Source: Rhodocytophaga aerolata
GTDB taxonomy: Bacteria; Bacteroidota; Bacteroidia; Cytophagales; 172606-1
Length of the DNA stretch: 64,000 nt
Direction of reading: 5' to 3'
Assembly: GCF_030503435.1 (NCBI RefSeq)
Contig: NZ_JAUKPO010000008.1
Location: 124,001 to 188,000 of the forward strand
The notes under the pieces were generated by a model, which saw nothing but the letters and a program-made list of their open reading frames with translations, did no database searches and had not been told where the DNA came from. This document shows, in pieces, positions 46,069 through 52,397 of the stretch. The first letter of the stretch is position 1, and each line of letters begins with the position of its first letter. The position numbers and the translations under genes are program-made.

Positions 46069-46102
46069 TAATGGCAAACGGAAACCTTCACGTTTGCCAT
46101 TA
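46069..46102 (+). promoter_or_regulatory. Inverted repeat immediately before the permease start
   Basis: Perfect 12-bp arms TAATGGCAAACG and CGTTTGCCATTA with a 10-base loop end only six bases before the permease ATG at 46109. There is no T-run after it. It could terminate the upstream gene, act as an operator, or fold over the translation start of the permease mRNA. Confidence 0.5.
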
Positions 46103-46108
46103 CGCTGA

Positions 46109-47440
46109 ATGCTCCACCAGACAAAAGCTGAAACTGTCTCTCTGAACCGATCTTTAGGACCTTTTATGCTGTGGGGATTGGGAGTAGGCCTGGTTATTTC
46201 AGGCATGTACTTTGGCTGGAATCTGGGCCTGGAAAAAGGAGGTACTTTAGGCTTTGCTATTGCTACCTTCTTTGTTATTATACTTTATACAACCTTTACC
46301 TTTTCCTATACCGAACTTGCTTGTGCCATACCCAAAGCTGGTGGTGCTTTTGACTATGCACATAAAGCTTTGGGTGAAAAAATGGGTTTTGTTTGCGGCA
46401 TTGCCCAGATTATTGAGTTTGTGTTTGCTCCGCCGGCTATTGCAGCGGCTATAGGTGCCTATTTTCAGATTTATTTTCCTTCCGTGCCAGGCATCCTCAT
46501 TGCCATTACTGCCTATGTATTCTTTACAGCATTAAATATTATAGGTGTTAAACTGGCCGCTACCTTTGAATTGTTTGTCACCATTTTCGCAGTAGCTGAA
46601 CTGCTTTTATTTGCCGGCGTTACCTTACCTCATTTCCAGGCAGCAAACTTCACGAAAAATGCTTTCCCCAATGGGTATGCTGGCATTTTTGCATCTATTC
46701 CCTTTGCCATCTGGTTTTTCCTGGCAATTGAGGGCCTGGCTAATCTGGCAGAAGAAACGGTAGACCCGGACAAAAATATAAAAAAAGGATTTGGCTGGGC
46801 ATTATTTACCTTGGTTGCTTTATGTATCCTTACCTTTGTTTCGGCTGTGGGTGTAGACGGCTGGGAACGAATTGTATATACCCCAACTGGTGAACCTTCT
46901 GACTCTCCCCTCCCGCTTGCTTTATCTGTAATAGTAGGAAACAACAATTTGCTCTATCACCTGTTAATCGGTATTGGTTTGATGGGGCTCGTTGCTTCTT
47001 TTCATGGCATTATACTGGCAGCAGGCCGGGCAACGTTTGAGTTTGGCAGGGTGGGTTACTTCCCGGCCATTCTGGGCAAACTACACCCAGTACGTAAAAC
47101 GCCGGCGGTTGCCTTGGTAGTAAATATGCTGGTAGGAATAGTTGCCTTGCTTACCGGAAAAACTGGTGAGATCATTACAATTGCTTGCATGGGGGCTCTT
47201 TCGTTGTATATTATTTCTATGTTTTCCCTGTTTGCCCTACGTAGAAACTATCCCGACATGCCAAGGCCATTTAAAGTACCTTTATACCCGGCTTTCCCAG
47301 CCATTGCTTTGGTTATTGCCCTCGTCGCCTTTATTGCTGTATGTATCTATAATCCGGGGCTTACCCTTATTTATTTTGGCATCCTATGCTTTACATATGT
47401 TGGGTATTTCTGGTTTCTGAAGAGAAGCCAAACACGTTGA
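46109..47440 (+). CDS. eat: Ethanolamine-type APC permease
   Basis: A 443-residue transporter of the APC superfamily with about 12 membrane helices. GLGVGLVISGMYFGWNLGLEKGG near residues 24-46, the AYTELACAIPKAGGAFDYAH-like block (about 68-87; here SYTELACAIP...) and the acidic EGLANLAEETVDPDKNIKKG (about 210-230) are what I recognise from the ethanolamine permease (Eat) subgroup rather than from general amino acid permeases. It is first in a row of five same-strand genes whose products form an amine-glutamylation pathway, which supports an amino alcohol as substrate. Confidence 0.82.
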   Translation: MLHQTKAETVSLNRSLGPFMLWGLGVGLVISGMYFGWNLGLEKGGTLGFAIATFFVIILYTTFTFSYTELACAIPKAGGAFDYAHKALGEKMGFVCGIAQIIEFVFAPPAIAAAIGAYFQIYFPSVPGILIAITAYVFFTALNIIGVKLAATFELFVTIFAVAELLLFAGVTLPHFQAANFTKNAFPNGYAGIFASIPFAIWFFLAIEGLANLAEETVDPDKNIKKGFGWALFTLVALCILTFVSAVGVDGWERIVYTPTGEPSDSPLPLALSVIVGNNNLLYHLLIGIGLMGLVASFHGIILAAGRATFEFGRVGYFPAILGKLHPVRKTPAVALVVNMLVGIVALLTGKTGEIITIACMGALSLYIISMFSLFALRRNYPDMPRPFKVPLYPAFPAIALVIALVAFIAVCIYNPGLTLIYFGILCFTYVGYFWFLKRSQTR

Positions 47441-47599
47441 CTTTGATGCATTTTGCTAGATAAACATTACTGCGAATGTTGCCCACTTATTCCGTACTGA
47501 ATTTTAACGGTTTAACTATAGAGTATTTTTTGTTATCTGCCGGATTTTTATCAAATTACCCACCATCGCTTTATCATCTATTCCACAAAGCAACGCCTT

Positions 47600-48955
47600 A
47601 TGACGACTGATCAAATTCTGGAATTTGTCCGGAAACATCCCCTGGCAAAAGTAAAACTGGCCGTTACCGATATAGATGGAATTTTACGAGGAAAGTATAT
47701 TTCCGCTGAAAAGTTTTCCGGAGTAGCAGAGGGAAATCTGGGATTTTGCGATGTGGTTTTCGGGTGGGACGCCGGTGATCTGGCCTACGATAATACAAAA
47801 CTTACCGGATGGCACACCGGTTATCCAGATGCTTCTGCTAAGCTAGACTTAACCACCTTCCGGAAAATACCCTGGGAACAAGACATACCTTTTTTTCTAG
47901 GCGAATTTATAGACACCCAGAACCAGCCAGCTTATTACTGCCCGCGGCAGTTACTAAAAAAACTCAAAAATGAGGCCGAATCGGAAGGGTACAAAGCGTA
48001 TTTTTCACAGGAATTCGAGTGGTTTAATTTCCGGGAAACGCCTACAACGCTGCAAGATAAAAATTACCGAAATGCAACACCGCTAACCCCGGGAATGTTT
48101 GGCTATTCCATCTTACGGACTACACTGGAGAATCCTTTTTTTAGTGATTTATTTGAGCTATTACGTCAATTCAATGTTCCCCTGGAAGGGCTGCATACAG
48201 AAACAGGGCCTGGAGTTTATGAAGCAGCCATCACGTATAGCGACATATTGGAAGCCGCAGACCGGGCTGTGTTATTTAAGACAAGTGTGAAAGAAATAGC
48301 CTATAAGCATGGCATTATAGCTACATTTATGGCCAAGATAGATGAAAATTTACCCGGATGCAGTGGCCATGTACACCAGAGTATCTGGGATAAAGATTCA
48401 AAAAATAATCTGTTTTATGAGGAGGCTGCTCCCCATAAAATGAGCAAATTTATGAAAAGCTACATTGCCGGGCAGCTATATTGCTTACCTCATATTTTGC
48501 CTATGTATGCCCCTACGGTAAATAGCTATAAGCGCTTGGTTCAGGGAGCCTGGGCACCTACCACACTCACCTGGGCTATAGATAACCGCACTGTGGCACT
48601 CCGGGCATTACCTGCAAGCAATAAGTCTACACGTTTAGAAACCCGGGTAGTGGGATCAGATTGTAACCCTTATTTAGCTATGGCTGCTTGCTTAGCTTCC
48701 GGCTTATATGGCGTACGGAATAATATATCGTTACAGGAGGCTACGATAGGAAATGGATATCTGGATACCTCCCATGGCTCTCTGCCAGGCAATTTACAGG
48801 AAGCTACTGCAAAGATGAAAGAGTCCGCCATTGCCAAAGAATTACTAGGCGAATCATTTGTCGAACATTTCTGCCAAACACGGGAGTGGGAGTGGCGGCA
48901 ATATGCCAAAGCCGTAACAGACTGGGAATTAAAGCGCTATCTGGAAATTATCTAG
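47600..48955 (+). CDS. Glutamine synthetase-like gamma-glutamyl-amine ligase
   Basis: A 451-residue ATP-dependent ligase of the glutamine synthetase fold. N-terminal AVTDIDGILRGKYIS (21-35) is typical of the PuuA/IpuC-like branch. Catalytic elements: EFEWFNF (138-144), Glu201 and Glu208 in HTETGPGVYEAA, GCSGHVHQS (253-261), NRTVALR (329-335) and ETRVVGSDCNPYLAMAA (347-363). It lacks the adenylylation-site tail of housekeeping GlnA and sits among catabolic genes, so it should glutamylate an amine rather than ammonia. With an ethanolamine permease next to it, gamma-glutamylethanolamide synthetase is the most likely activity. Gaps of about 160 bases on each side. Confidence 0.85.
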   Translation: MTTDQILEFVRKHPLAKVKLAVTDIDGILRGKYISAEKFSGVAEGNLGFCDVVFGWDAGDLAYDNTKLTGWHTGYPDASAKLDLTTFRKIPWEQDIPFFLGEFIDTQNQPAYYCPRQLLKKLKNEAESEGYKAYFSQEFEWFNFRETPTTLQDKNYRNATPLTPGMFGYSILRTTLENPFFSDLFELLRQFNVPLEGLHTETGPGVYEAAITYSDILEAADRAVLFKTSVKEIAYKHGIIATFMAKIDENLPGCSGHVHQSIWDKDSKNNLFYEEAAPHKMSKFMKSYIAGQLYCLPHILPMYAPTVNSYKRLVQGAWAPTTLTWAIDNRTVALRALPASNKSTRLETRVVGSDCNPYLAMAACLASGLYGVRNNISLQEATIGNGYLDTSHGSLPGNLQEATAKMKESAIAKELLGESFVEHFCQTREWEWRQYAKAVTDWELKRYLEII

Positions 48956-49115
48956 TATCGAAAACTATATATACAAGTACGCTAAGAGGAACAATCCAGG
49001 TTTTCTTATCTTTAACTATTGAACATTGGCATATAACAGCATATAACTTTTGATTTATAGCAGCCCTTACTTATTAGACAAGTATCAGCATATCATTTAA
49101 TCAGCACATCTACTT

Positions 49116-50264
49116 ATGACCTTTGATAAAGTATACCAGTATAATTTTCCGACCACTATCCGTTTTGGAGCCGGAGCAAGCCAGGAATTAGGTGATTATC
49201 TGAAAAGCCAGGGTTTGTCAAGGCCCCTGGTTGTAACTGATCCGGTGGTAGCAGAATTGCCTTTTTTTAAAACTATACTCAAGCAGGTAACAGATAAAGG
49301 ACTTTCACCAGAAGTTTTTAAAGATATACATAAAAATCCGGTGAAGTCAGATGTATATAAAGGAACCGAAGTTTGGGACCAAACCAACCGGGATTGTATA
49401 GTGGGTATTGGTGGAGGCGCGGCGTTAGATGTTGCACGGGCTATTTTGCTTAGAATTAACCACCGGGAAGATTTATTCAAATACGACGACCTGATTGGAG
49501 GCGATGTATACGTAACTAACGATGTGCCTCATTTTGTAACGATTCCAACTACCTCGGGTACAGGAAGTGAAGTTGGCCGGAGTGCCATTATTTCCGATGA
49601 TGAAACCAAGCAGAAACGCATTTTATTTTCGCCTAAACTATTGGCTAAAATCGTGTTTGCCGATCCAGAGCTTACTATGGACTTACCTGCATTCATCACA
49701 GCAGCCACCGGTATGGATGCCCTGACACATAATATGGAAGCCTTTCTGGCCAAAATGCCGCATCCTATTTGTGAAGGAATTGCGCTGGAAGGAATTAACC
49801 TGATAAAAGATTCATTGGAAAAAGCTGTTAACAAGCCTGATTTAGAATCACGGAGCAAAATGCTACTGGGTTCTATGATGGGAGCCATTGCGTTTCAGAA
49901 AGGGTTAGGCGTGGTGCACTCTCTGGCTCACCCGCTTTCATCGCTGCTGGACACGCATCATGGCCTGGCTAATGCAGTAAATATTCCGTATGGGATGGAA
50001 TATAATATTGCAGGGTTTGAACCTAAATTCAGAAGAATAGCACGCACCCTTGAATTGAAAGAGGAAACTGGCAACGCCGTCGTGCAGTATCTGTTTGACT
50101 TAAACTCCCAGATTGGCATTCCGCATAAGCTCCGGGAAATTGGTGTAAAGTCCGAACATATAGAAACGTTAGCTGACCTGGCCATTGCTGATTTCGCTCA
50201 TCCGAATAATCCAAAGCCAGTATCCCGAGAAGATTTCAAACAGCTGTACCAGAAAGCACTGTAA
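49116..50264 (+). CDS. Iron-containing (type III) alcohol dehydrogenase
   Basis: A 382-residue metal-dependent alcohol dehydrogenase. NAD(P)-binding GIGGGAALDVARAI (97-110) and TIPTTSGTGSEV (143-153); metal ligands Asp201 and His205 in MDALTHNMEA, His272 in LAHPLSS and His282 in HHGLANAVN. In the cluster context it would oxidise the hydroxyl of gamma-glutamylethanolamide to the aldehyde, the step that replaces the amine oxidase or transaminase of polyamine routes. The next gene starts 46 bases downstream. Confidence 0.9.
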   Translation: MTFDKVYQYNFPTTIRFGAGASQELGDYLKSQGLSRPLVVTDPVVAELPFFKTILKQVTDKGLSPEVFKDIHKNPVKSDVYKGTEVWDQTNRDCIVGIGGGAALDVARAILLRINHREDLFKYDDLIGGDVYVTNDVPHFVTIPTTSGTGSEVGRSAIISDDETKQKRILFSPKLLAKIVFADPELTMDLPAFITAATGMDALTHNMEAFLAKMPHPICEGIALEGINLIKDSLEKAVNKPDLESRSKMLLGSMMGAIAFQKGLGVVHSLAHPLSSLLDTHHGLANAVNIPYGMEYNIAGFEPKFRRIARTLELKEETGNAVVQYLFDLNSQIGIPHKLREIGVKSEHIETLADLAIADFAHPNNPKPVSREDFKQLYQKAL

Positions 50265-50310
50265 ATAAGTCATTAGCCGTTGGAATAATCATTTGTAGTT
50301 CTATTTGTTC

Positions 50311-51012
50311 ATGAATAAAATAATCATTGGCGTTACCGATTGCAGCAAGTACGACAACTACGCCCGCTGGATACAAGCATTTGGCACTGAGGTAGAAACG
50401 TTGAAGTTGAGTGAGAAAGCCAATAACTTAGCAGATGCGGCGCGTTGCCAGGGTATTGTATTTACCGGAGGAGAAGATGTACATCCGGGGCTTTACGGCA
50501 AGCCCGAATATCTGTCTTTCTGCCATCAAGATGATATAAATGAACTCCGGGATGAGTTTGAGTTAAAATTGATGGAGTATACAGAGCAAAATCATATTCC
50601 TGTACTGGGTATTTGCCGGGGTTTGCAGGTGTTCAATGTTTTTAAGGGAGGCACCCTTATTCCGGATATTCCCGCATGGGGCAAACCCACCCATGCGAAG
50701 CTAGCCGACGGCTCCGACCGATATCATTCAATTAATGTTATACCCGGCTCCTGGTTTGAACATGTAGTAGGCAAAGTAACAGGAGAAACCAATAGTAATC
50801 ATCACCAGTCCATTGACCGTGTGGGCGACGGGTTGGTAGCAAGTGCATTTTGTCAGGATGGCATTATAGAAGCAGCCGATAGAAAAGAGGTAGATGGGAA
50901 AGGCTTTTTGTGCCTGGTACAATGGCATCCTGAGAGAATGCATAATCAGCAAAACCCTTTTGTATACACTATCAGAGAAGCATTTATTAAAGCAGCCAAC
51001 GCTTTAATCTAA
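50311..51012 (+). CDS. Gamma-glutamyl hydrolase, class I amidotransferase type (PuuD-like)
   Basis: A 233-residue peptidase C26 enzyme. Nucleophile Cys102 in GICRGLQVFN, His206 and Glu208 in VQWHPER, and GIVFTGGEDVHPGLYG (48-63), the signature of gamma-glutamyl-GABA hydrolases. The ATG at 50311 (MNKIIIGVTD) is preferred to a TTG six bases upstream. It should release glutamate from the oxidised gamma-glutamyl intermediate. The next gene (aldehyde dehydrogenase) starts 11 bases on, so the two are surely co-transcribed. Confidence 0.88.
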   Translation: MNKIIIGVTDCSKYDNYARWIQAFGTEVETLKLSEKANNLADAARCQGIVFTGGEDVHPGLYGKPEYLSFCHQDDINELRDEFELKLMEYTEQNHIPVLGICRGLQVFNVFKGGTLIPDIPAWGKPTHAKLADGSDRYHSINVIPGSWFEHVVGKVTGETNSNHHQSIDRVGDGLVASAFCQDGIIEAADRKEVDGKGFLCLVQWHPERMHNQQNPFVYTIREAFIKAANALI

Positions 51013-51023
51013 AAATAAGATTT

Positions 51024-52397
51024 ATGAATGTAACTAATCCGGCAACCGAAGAAATAATTGCCACCCTTCCTGAAGACACTTCCTCCACTTTGCAGGAAAA
51101 GTTTACACTGCTGAAAAAGGCGCAAAAAGCTTGGGCACAGCAGACCATACAAGAGCGGACTTTAATTCTGAAAAAATTCAGTAGTCTGCTTGAACAAAAT
51201 ATAGAACAGCTAGCAGCCGTACTTACCTCTGAAGTAGGCAAGCCTCTGCAACAATCCCGCAACGAAATTAAAGGAGCGATTGCTCGTATTCAATGGCTGA
51301 CAGATAATGGAGAAAAATACCTAACGCATGAATGGATGACCCAAGAAGAGGGCTTGGGTGAGCAAATAAGCTATGAGCCCTTAGGAGTGATCTGTAACAT
51401 ATCGGCCTGGAATTATCCGTATCTGGTGGGGGTAAATGTATTTGTCCCTGCACTGTTAGCAGGAAATGGGGTGCTTTACAAACCGTCGGAATATGCGGCA
51501 CTTACAGGCCTGGAAATAGAAAAAATGTTAAGAAAGGCAGGCGTTCCGGACGAAGTGTTTCAGGTAGCTATTGGCGCATCTGCTGTGGGCGAATTGCTGC
51601 TTGATGTGCCATTTGATGGGTATTTTTTCACTGGCTCCTACCGGACCGGGAAATACATTTATGAACGGGTGGCTTCTAAAATGGTTCCTTGTCAATTAGA
51701 ACTGGGCGGTAAAGATCCGTTGTATGTAGCTGATGATGTGGAAGATATAAAATCGGTAGCAGCAGGTACGGCAGATGGTGCCTTTTATAATAATGGACAA
51801 AGTTGCTGTGCAGTAGAACGTATTTATGTGCATGAATCTATCTATGACCAGTATGTGGAAGAGTTTGTAAAAGAAGTAAAAACCTACAAAGTGGGGCCGC
51901 CCAGCGAAGAAGGAGTTTATGTAGGGCCGCTGACGAGAAAAGACCAGATAAAAGTACTGGAAGCCCAGGTAAAAGAGGCTGTTGAGAAAGGGGCCACAGT
52001 TCTGACAGGTGGGAAGCCAATACAAAAGAACGGATATTATTTTGAGCCGACGGTGCTTATCAATGTAAACCATCAGATGCGTGTGATGCAGGATGAATCC
52101 TTTGGACCCATTATTGGCATTATGAAAGTGAAAGATGACGAAGAAGCCTTGCAATTAATGGATGATACAAGCTATGGCCTTACAGCTGCCGTTTATAGCA
52201 AAAGTATGGAAAGGGCTGAGAATATCTTATCCAGATTAAATACCGGTACCGCTTACTGGAATTGTTGCGACCGGGTAAGTGCGGCACTACCCTGGAGTGG
52301 ACGTAAAAATTCAGGCTTTGGCTCTACATTATCTTATACCGGTATACGTGCCTTTGTCCGCCCCAAAGCCTATCACTTGCGAGGATTAAAGAAGTAA
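51024..52397 (+). CDS. NAD(P)-dependent aldehyde dehydrogenase
   Basis: A 457-residue ALDH superfamily enzyme. Oxyanion Asn130 in WNYP, general base Glu226 in LELGGKDP, nucleophile Cys261 in NNGQSCCAVERI, and the cofactor loop FTGSYRTGK (202-210). It would oxidise gamma-glutamyl-aminoacetaldehyde to gamma-glutamylglycine if the pathway substrate is ethanolamine. Last gene of the cluster; no hairpin terminator was seen in the following 330 bases. Confidence 0.9.
   Translation: MNVTNPATEEIIATLPEDTSSTLQEKFTLLKKAQKAWAQQTIQERTLILKKFSSLLEQNIEQLAAVLTSEVGKPLQQSRNEIKGAIARIQWLTDNGEKYLTHEWMTQEEGLGEQISYEPLGVICNISAWNYPYLVGVNVFVPALLAGNGVLYKPSEYAALTGLEIEKMLRKAGVPDEVFQVAIGASAVGELLLDVPFDGYFFTGSYRTGKYIYERVASKMVPCQLELGGKDPLYVADDVEDIKSVAAGTADGAFYNNGQSCCAVERIYVHESIYDQYVEEFVKEVKTYKVGPPSEEGVYVGPLTRKDQIKVLEAQVKEAVEKGATVLTGGKPIQKNGYYFEPTVLINVNHQMRVMQDESFGPIIGIMKVKDDEEALQLMDDTSYGLTAAVYSKSMERAENILSRLNTGTAYWNCCDRVSAALPWSGRKNSGFGSTLSYTGIRAFVRPKAYHLRGLKK

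Follow-up and report, generated by a model that had tools for sequence, protein, structure and literature searches.

Five adjacent genes in a 64,000-nucleotide stretch of DNA from Rhodocytophaga aerolata (contig NZ_JAUKPO010000008.1, positions 124,001 to 188,000; hereafter, the window) probably form a catabolic operon for ethanolamine that would bypass the cobalamin enzyme EutBC. The genes occupy positions 46109–52397 of the window and encode, in this order, an Eat-type permease, a glutamine synthetase (GS)-like gamma-glutamyl ligase, an iron-containing alcohol dehydrogenase, a Peptidase C26-type hydrolase, and an aldehyde dehydrogenase. The same order is kept at 47 other distinct loci from many genera, which is far beyond chance, and members of the permease family occur either with the classical ethanolamine lyase or with the glutamylation genes. 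Based on the gene families, we infer that the Eat permease would import ethanolamine and that the ligase would couple it to the gamma-carboxyl of glutamate, consuming ATP. The iron alcohol dehydrogenase, followed by the aldehyde dehydrogenase, would then convert the hydroxyl end to a carboxylate, yielding gamma-glutamylglycine, which the C26 hydrolase would split into glycine and glutamate. A preliminary description of this DNA had proposed the same succession of import, glutamate capping, double oxidation, and hydrolysis. This is still the best reading, and it is strengthened by the comparative data; the naming of ethanolamine in particular is a likely rather than a firm part of it.

Analysis of the open reading frames (ORFs) placed all five genes on the + strand in the order given by the preliminary description, with intergenic gaps of 159, 160, 46, and 11 bases, the last one lying between the end of the hydrolase gene at 51012 and the start of the aldehyde dehydrogenase gene at 51024. 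The product of the first gene (46109..47440; 443 amino acids (aa)) is a permease of the APC family that scores 443 bits against the ethanolamine permease model TIGR00908, above the curated cut-off of 381.75 bits, and it is the only Eat copy in the source genome. The ligase (47600..48955; 451 aa), a proposed gamma-glutamylethanolamide synthetase, matches Gln-synt_C (PF00120; E-value, 1.8e-99). The alcohol dehydrogenase (49116..50264; 382 aa), which may act as gamma-glutamylethanolamide dehydrogenase, matches Fe-ADH (PF00465; 4.2e-43) and ADH_Fe_C (PF25137; 8.8e-49). The hydrolase (50311..51012; 233 aa) is of the Peptidase C26/class-I amidotransferase type (PF07722; 3.6e-43) and is a candidate gamma-glutamylglycine hydrolase; we read its start as the ATG at 50311, not the listed TTG at 50305. 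The aldehyde dehydrogenase (51024..52397; 457 aa; PF00171; 1.3e-133) is the putative gamma-glutamyl-aminoacetaldehyde dehydrogenase. The identities of the permease and of the two dehydrogenases thus agree with those assigned previously.

The ligase had been described as GS-like with a PuuA-type N terminus. The GS-like character holds, a specific likeness to PuuA does not: the ligase scores 182.5 bits against the gamma-glutamylputrescine synthetase model, with a cut-off of 650 bits, and shares 29% identity with E. coli PuuA. It also falls below the NCBIfam cut-offs for glutamine synthetase type I (231 vs. 429 bits) and type III (217 vs. 470 bits). Residues E138, E140, E201, E208, H257, H259, R330, R335, R345, and R349 align with conserved residues of GlnA, and the glutamate- and ATP-site residues of the GS fold are retained in the alignment. 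W318 occupies the position aligned with the Glu of the E. coli GlnA motif 'GYEAP', a residue that we take to serve ammonium in true glutamine synthetases. The AlphaFold2 model of the ligase has a predicted local distance difference test (pLDDT) score of 84.9, and the second best PDB sequence match is 5dm3 (Csal_0679). Another GS-domain protein (729 aa), encoded elsewhere in the source genome, matched no NCBIfam model at 1e-30 and may handle ammonia assimilation. Given the sub-threshold scores and the presence of this other protein, a glutamine synthetase identity of the window ligase was rejected.

The expected catalytic residues were found in all four enzymes; their presence is read from alignments, and their roles are general knowledge of the families. 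The iron ligands D201, H205, H268, and H282 of the alcohol dehydrogenase are present in the alignment with FucO, the hydrolase has C102 and H206/E208, and the aldehyde dehydrogenase has E226 and C261. The alcohol dehydrogenase shares 37% identity (283 bits) with its counterpart in an EtoX-type operon of Marinovum, 32% with FucO (205 bits), and 30% with EutG (184 bits), and the aldehyde dehydrogenase is 37% identical to its Marinovum counterpart and 32% to PuuC. The hydrolase had been called PuuD-like. Its membership of the C26 family stands, whereas a closeness to PuuD does not, with 26% identity to that protein and 33% over 168–182 residues to the amidotransferases of an Arthrobacter ligase cluster and of the ipu cluster. 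All NCBIfam matches of the hydrolase are under cut-off, and the hydrolysis of a gamma-glutamyl amide is predicted from the C26 family. Among the matches listed, no equivalog cut-off was passed by the alcohol dehydrogenase, the hydrolase, or the aldehyde dehydrogenase.

The ligase, the aldehyde dehydrogenase, and the hydrolase share broad families with PuuA, PuuC, and PuuD, as would be expected of putrescine or other polyamine catabolism in the style of E. coli. The likelihood of such a function is nevertheless close to nil and it was rejected, because the five genes include no oxidase or aminotransferase, where E. coli has PuuB and PuuE, and because the PuuA model is far below its cut-off; the permease, moreover, scores as Eat. 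The earlier argument that an alcohol dehydrogenase speaks against putrescine is in line with this result. The reported absence of EutBC genes was found to extend to the entire 9.07-Mb assembly (202 contigs, rated 100% complete), in which neither EutB, the ethanolamine ammonia-lyase large subunit, was matched at 1e-20 nor EutC at 1e-3.

A ligase search at an E-value of 1e-60 returned matches in 103 of 390 genomes of the order and in 53 of 392 genomes sampled across Bacteroidota. The matches split into a close family with at least 50% identity (71 of the 103 and 41 of the 53, respectively) and a second family at 32–37% (32 and 12). The gene surroundings compared came from close-family genomes other than the source (40 in the phylum sample and a further 40 in the order sample), from 20 of 43 second-family genomes, and from the top 80 among at least 588 confirmed loci on titled genome contigs, many of them metagenome-assembled genomes. 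Classified by neighbours, the resulting 179 loci comprised 57 with an alcohol dehydrogenase and Eat, 19 with an alcohol dehydrogenase and no Eat, 7 with Eat only, 68 of a ligase-kinase-HAD type, 13 of a short-chain dehydrogenase type, and 15 others. One of the 19, locus L098, is misassigned, as it was classed by a 24% alcohol dehydrogenase match about 5 kb away and its neighbours speak against that class.

The loci with an Eat or alcohol dehydrogenase match nearby represent 81 distinct ligase sequences, and at the loci of 47 of these, the window not counted, the exact order of permease, ligase, alcohol dehydrogenase, hydrolase, and aldehyde dehydrogenase was found, with median gaps of 23, 23, 14, and 15 bases as measured on alignment ends. 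A search for this neighbourhood across Bacteroidota had been suggested in the preliminary description; the set recurs, its full form being present in 8 of the 392 sampled genomes, the source genome included. Among the named carriers are members of Pedobacter, Chitinophaga, Olivibacter, Parapedobacter, Flavihumibacter, Puia, Membranihabitans, and Sphingobacterium. These data bear on the view that the ligase produces glutamine, or a regulatory or biosynthetic gamma-glutamyl compound, next to accidental neighbours. Such a view would suit the kinase/phosphatase operon in which most sampled ligase relatives reside (see below). It is, however, very unlikely in the light of the five-gene order kept at so many loci, the second GS-domain protein of the genome, the replacement of the GlnA glutamate by W318, and the glutamine synthetase cut-offs that are not reached.

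Two further arrangements of the ligase were observed. In one genus (L097–L101), a ligase with 69–72% identity is flanked by a GntP-family permease on one side and, on the other, by a protein that weakly matches ATP-grasp. At L104 and L107, Eat and the ligase are adjacent without oxidation genes, and a gene for a 271-aa protein begins almost directly after the ligase.

As for the substrate, Eat was found above its cut-off in 20 and EutB in 12 of the 392 Bacteroidota genomes. In 7 of the 20, Eat lies less than 1 kb from EutB, in 8 it adjoins a window-type ligase, in 2 it is about 3 kb from the second ligase type within one gene set, and in 3 it stands apart (two of these on contigs of limited length). 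EutB was present in none of the 10 genomes with ligase-linked Eats and in 8 of the 10 other Eat genomes (Fisher p, 0.0007), and Eat was present in all 8 window-type genomes of the 392 (hypergeometric p, 1e-11); both values are optimistic, the genomes being related. Since one permease family alternates in this way between EutB and the ligase, ethanolamine is the best guess of the substrate and is likely to be used in preference to another primary amino alcohol.

Phylogenetic analysis (FastTree) resolved the EutB-linked Eats (support, 90) and the ligase-linked Eats (support, 96) as separate sister clades. The window permease is found outside the EutB-linked clade, among Eats that mostly adjoin gamma-glutamyl ligases, and it shares 43–47% identity with EutB-linked and 56–69% with ligase-linked members. 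The Eat of the short-chain-dehydrogenase-type locus L146 nests inside the window-type clade, which suggests that the permease has passed from one ligase type to another. When the window was compared with a genome of the same genus (L093), the four enzymes were 83–94% identical and the permease 69% (46109–47440 vs. L093:6286–7608), a pattern that would fit either a swap of the permease or its faster evolution.

The separate clade of ligase-linked Eats leaves room for the same chemistry to act on a different primary amino alcohol, such as L-alaninol, which would give alanine, or 3-aminopropanol, which would give beta-alanine. This alternative is rather improbable. It gains from the ligase being nearer to IpuC than to the EtoX-type ligase of Marinovum, and from the ipu route including gamma-glutamyl-L-alaninol as an intermediate, according to the available part of the source (PMC6776027). 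It loses from the permease score above the Eat model cut-off and from the alternation of Eat with EutB. Alaninol is, besides, a rare natural nutrient when compared with phospholipid-derived ethanolamine.

Several observations weigh against the proposed ethanolamine operon. The ligase-linked Eats may, as a clade of their own, have shifted in substrate away from ethanolamine. With 33% identity to the EtoX-type ligase of Marinovum and 40% to IpuC, and a place in the tree beside neither of them, the window ligase belongs to a lineage that gives no reading of the substrate. In a FastTree phylogeny with long outgroup branches, in which the EtoX type was represented by relatives such as Marinovum in place of the MED193 and Csal sequences, its supported neighbours are plasmid-borne Proteobacterial ligases from mixed contexts (Paracoccus, Rhizobium, Burkholderia, Legionella, and others), and both the EtoX type and IpuC lie outside this group. 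Of the 34 of 81 ligase sequences whose loci lack the exact order, 13 come from loci that run into contig ends and 21 from loci that are uncut yet different; about half of the latter are without Eat, which is the commonest real difference. On account of these 21 loci, confidence in the ethanolamine reading was slightly lowered and that in another amino alcohol raised. The co-transcription of the five genes in the window is not certain either, because the first two gaps measure 159 and 160 bases. Finally, 33 of the 41 phylum-sample genomes with the close ligase family carry the ligase in a kinase/HAD operon instead.

This sister operon, which the five-gene comparison brought to light, encodes, near the ligase and in most cases directly after it, a HAD phosphatase together with a protein of some 345 aa (examples are L232:9416–11374 and L087:9347 onward, together with parts of L226–L263 and L057–L132, as identified by comparison of neighbours). 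One HAD member passes TIGR01460 (HAD-IIA) with 130 bits, above the cut-off. For one 345-aa member, searches of Pfam and NCBIfam (at 0.001) and of PDB sequences (at 0.1) gave no match. The AlphaFold2 model of another member of this type (pLDDT, 81.6, with low values of 50–70 over residues 201–260, which hold the presumed catalytic motifs) matches APH-fold kinases, with amicoumacin kinase ranked first (E-value, 1.6e-7; TM-score, 0.64) and aminopropanol and choline kinases lower. On the ligase tree, the kinase-HAD label requires 3 changes, vs. 56.3 in shuffles. EutB is also present in 6 of the 33 sister-operon genomes, and the sister operon is therefore not simply a stand-in for EutBC. A single full-text literature search, judged by title, brought up no account of it. 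Tentatively, the ligase family of the window could serve two operons: one for amino-alcohol catabolism, in which a clade of Eat is joined to a cobalamin-free glutamylation pathway built of non-matching enzymes, and another, commoner in the sample, in which an APH-fold kinase and a HAD-IIA phosphatase would make up a gamma-glutamylation system that phosphorylates and dephosphorylates the glutamylated amino alcohol, or its phosphate, and does not oxidise it.

Other features of the window were also examined. A perfect 12-bp inverted repeat (46069..46102), which may be a terminator of the preceding gene or an operator, ends 6 bases ahead of the permease start codon; it is not conserved, being absent from 30 relatives with upstream sequence, and unrelated repeats occur in 2. 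No known RNA element scored above its gathering threshold in the window. The sigma-70 consensus is unsuited to Bacteroidota, and a promoter scan based on this consensus gave 14 sites in the window vs. 14.5 in shuffles; terminator-like sites numbered 11 vs. 6.7. The downstream genes for HGSNAT-like (52730) and EamA-like (54329) proteins were rejected as part of the set, since they formed single-member clusters among the first 110 loci compared.

The use of ethanolamine is commonly discussed together with vitamin B12 and EutBC, and Eat-bearing Bacteroidota appear to be split into B12-dependent and B12-free users. The preliminary description had regarded a clustered route of this kind as little described. 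The route itself is in print in the available parts of two reports (PMC10132767, PMC6529630), whereas, in searches of open-licence literature, none of the papers listed was seen to describe it for Bacteroidota. In its accessible part, a review on ethanolamine has no word starting with 'Bacteroid' and lists Flavobacterium among ethanolamine users (PMC9397018). The chemistry is thus already published elsewhere, and the recurring Bacteroidota build differs in ligase lineage, hydrolase family, and transporter. As full five-gene sets are carried by genera that include named strains, for example Pedobacter, Chitinophaga, Parapedobacter, and Flavihumibacter, the prediction is directly testable.

Of the known systems, the EtoX-type operon (Phaeobacter MED193_10021–10056, the Chromohalobacter Csal_0678 region, and Agrobacterium) has the four enzyme activities that are predicted for the window and, like it, a clustered transporter. 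As far as the available text of Westermann et al. (2023, PMC10132767) goes, the MED193 operon contains genes for RpiR, an amidohydrolase, three TRAP components, the ligase, an aldehyde dehydrogenase, and gamma-glutamylethanolamide dehydrogenase. On phosphorylethanolamine, the amidohydrolase, the TRAP binding protein, the ligase, and both dehydrogenases were upregulated in proteomics, placing the same four enzyme steps in a single operon, and the authors refer to relatives in Chromohalobacter and Agrobacterium whose function was demonstrated (PMC10132767). A Marinovum plasmid locus encodes a regulator, an amidohydrolase, three TRAP components, the ligase, an aldehyde dehydrogenase and, last, a class IV (iron) alcohol dehydrogenase, and a Qingshengfaniella plasmid locus with an RpiR-type regulator has the same order, also ending in the iron enzyme. 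Based on gene order, we take both to be close relatives of the MED193 operon. The iron alcohol dehydrogenase of these two loci is as in the window, whereas the EtoX type has a TRAP transporter (EtoVWX) in place of Eat, a hydrolase of the N-formylglutamate amidohydrolase type in place of Peptidase C26, another ligase lineage, and another gene order. On a Paracoccus pantotrophus plasmid (L157:6142–14122), genes for an amidohydrolase, a ligase, an aldehyde dehydrogenase, and an iron alcohol dehydrogenase adjoin bhcBCD, annotated as glyoxylate catabolism; this linkage of an EtoX-type enzyme core fits a glycine product and suggests the beta-hydroxyaspartate cycle as the destination of glycine or glyoxylate. 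A Legionella lytica plasmid carries the order ligase, aldehyde dehydrogenase, iron alcohol dehydrogenase, and amidotransferase, the first three being 42%, 37%, and 40% identical to those of the window; BLAST returned no match between its amidotransferase and the hydrolase of the window.

In Streptomyces, GlnA4 was shown to be a gamma-glutamylethanolamide synthetase and the later steps were predicted (Krysenko et al. 2019, PMC6529630, as far as available). Similar to the window, the GlnA4 cluster (SCO1610–1615) encodes a ligase, a dehydrogenase, an aldehyde dehydrogenase, an amidohydrolase/amidotransferase and, in some species, a permease; it differs in using a short-chain dehydrogenase for the alcohol step, instead of an iron enzyme, and in a permease described as unlike Eat (PMC6529630). 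Judged by gene content alone, this cluster is resembled more closely by the Bacteroidota short-chain-dehydrogenase set at L143 and L146 than by the window; there, a window-type Eat (65% identical) stands beside a ligase of 34–35% identity, a short-chain dehydrogenase, an aldehyde dehydrogenase, and a different amidotransferase. The isopropylamine (Ipu) cluster of Paenarthrobacter aurescens TC1 has a ligase 40% and an amidotransferase-type hydrolase 33% identical to those of the window; unlike the window, it has P450, ferredoxin, and short-chain dehydrogenase genes, and its starting amine bears no hydroxyl, according to the part of the source available (PMC6776027). The E. coli Puu pathway follows the same logic of glutamylation, aldehyde oxidation, and hydrolysis, with PuuB and PuuE and no alcohol dehydrogenase, whereas the five genes include neither of the two and an alcohol dehydrogenase instead. 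The short Eat-EutBC operon of Pseudomonas aeruginosa, also found in seven sampled Bacteroidota, shares the Eat permease with the window and relies on a cobalamin-dependent lyase where the window would use glutamylation (PMC5821096, available part). Taken together, these comparisons suggest that the gamma-glutamyl route has been assembled more than once, from differing ligase, alcohol dehydrogenase, and hydrolase families.

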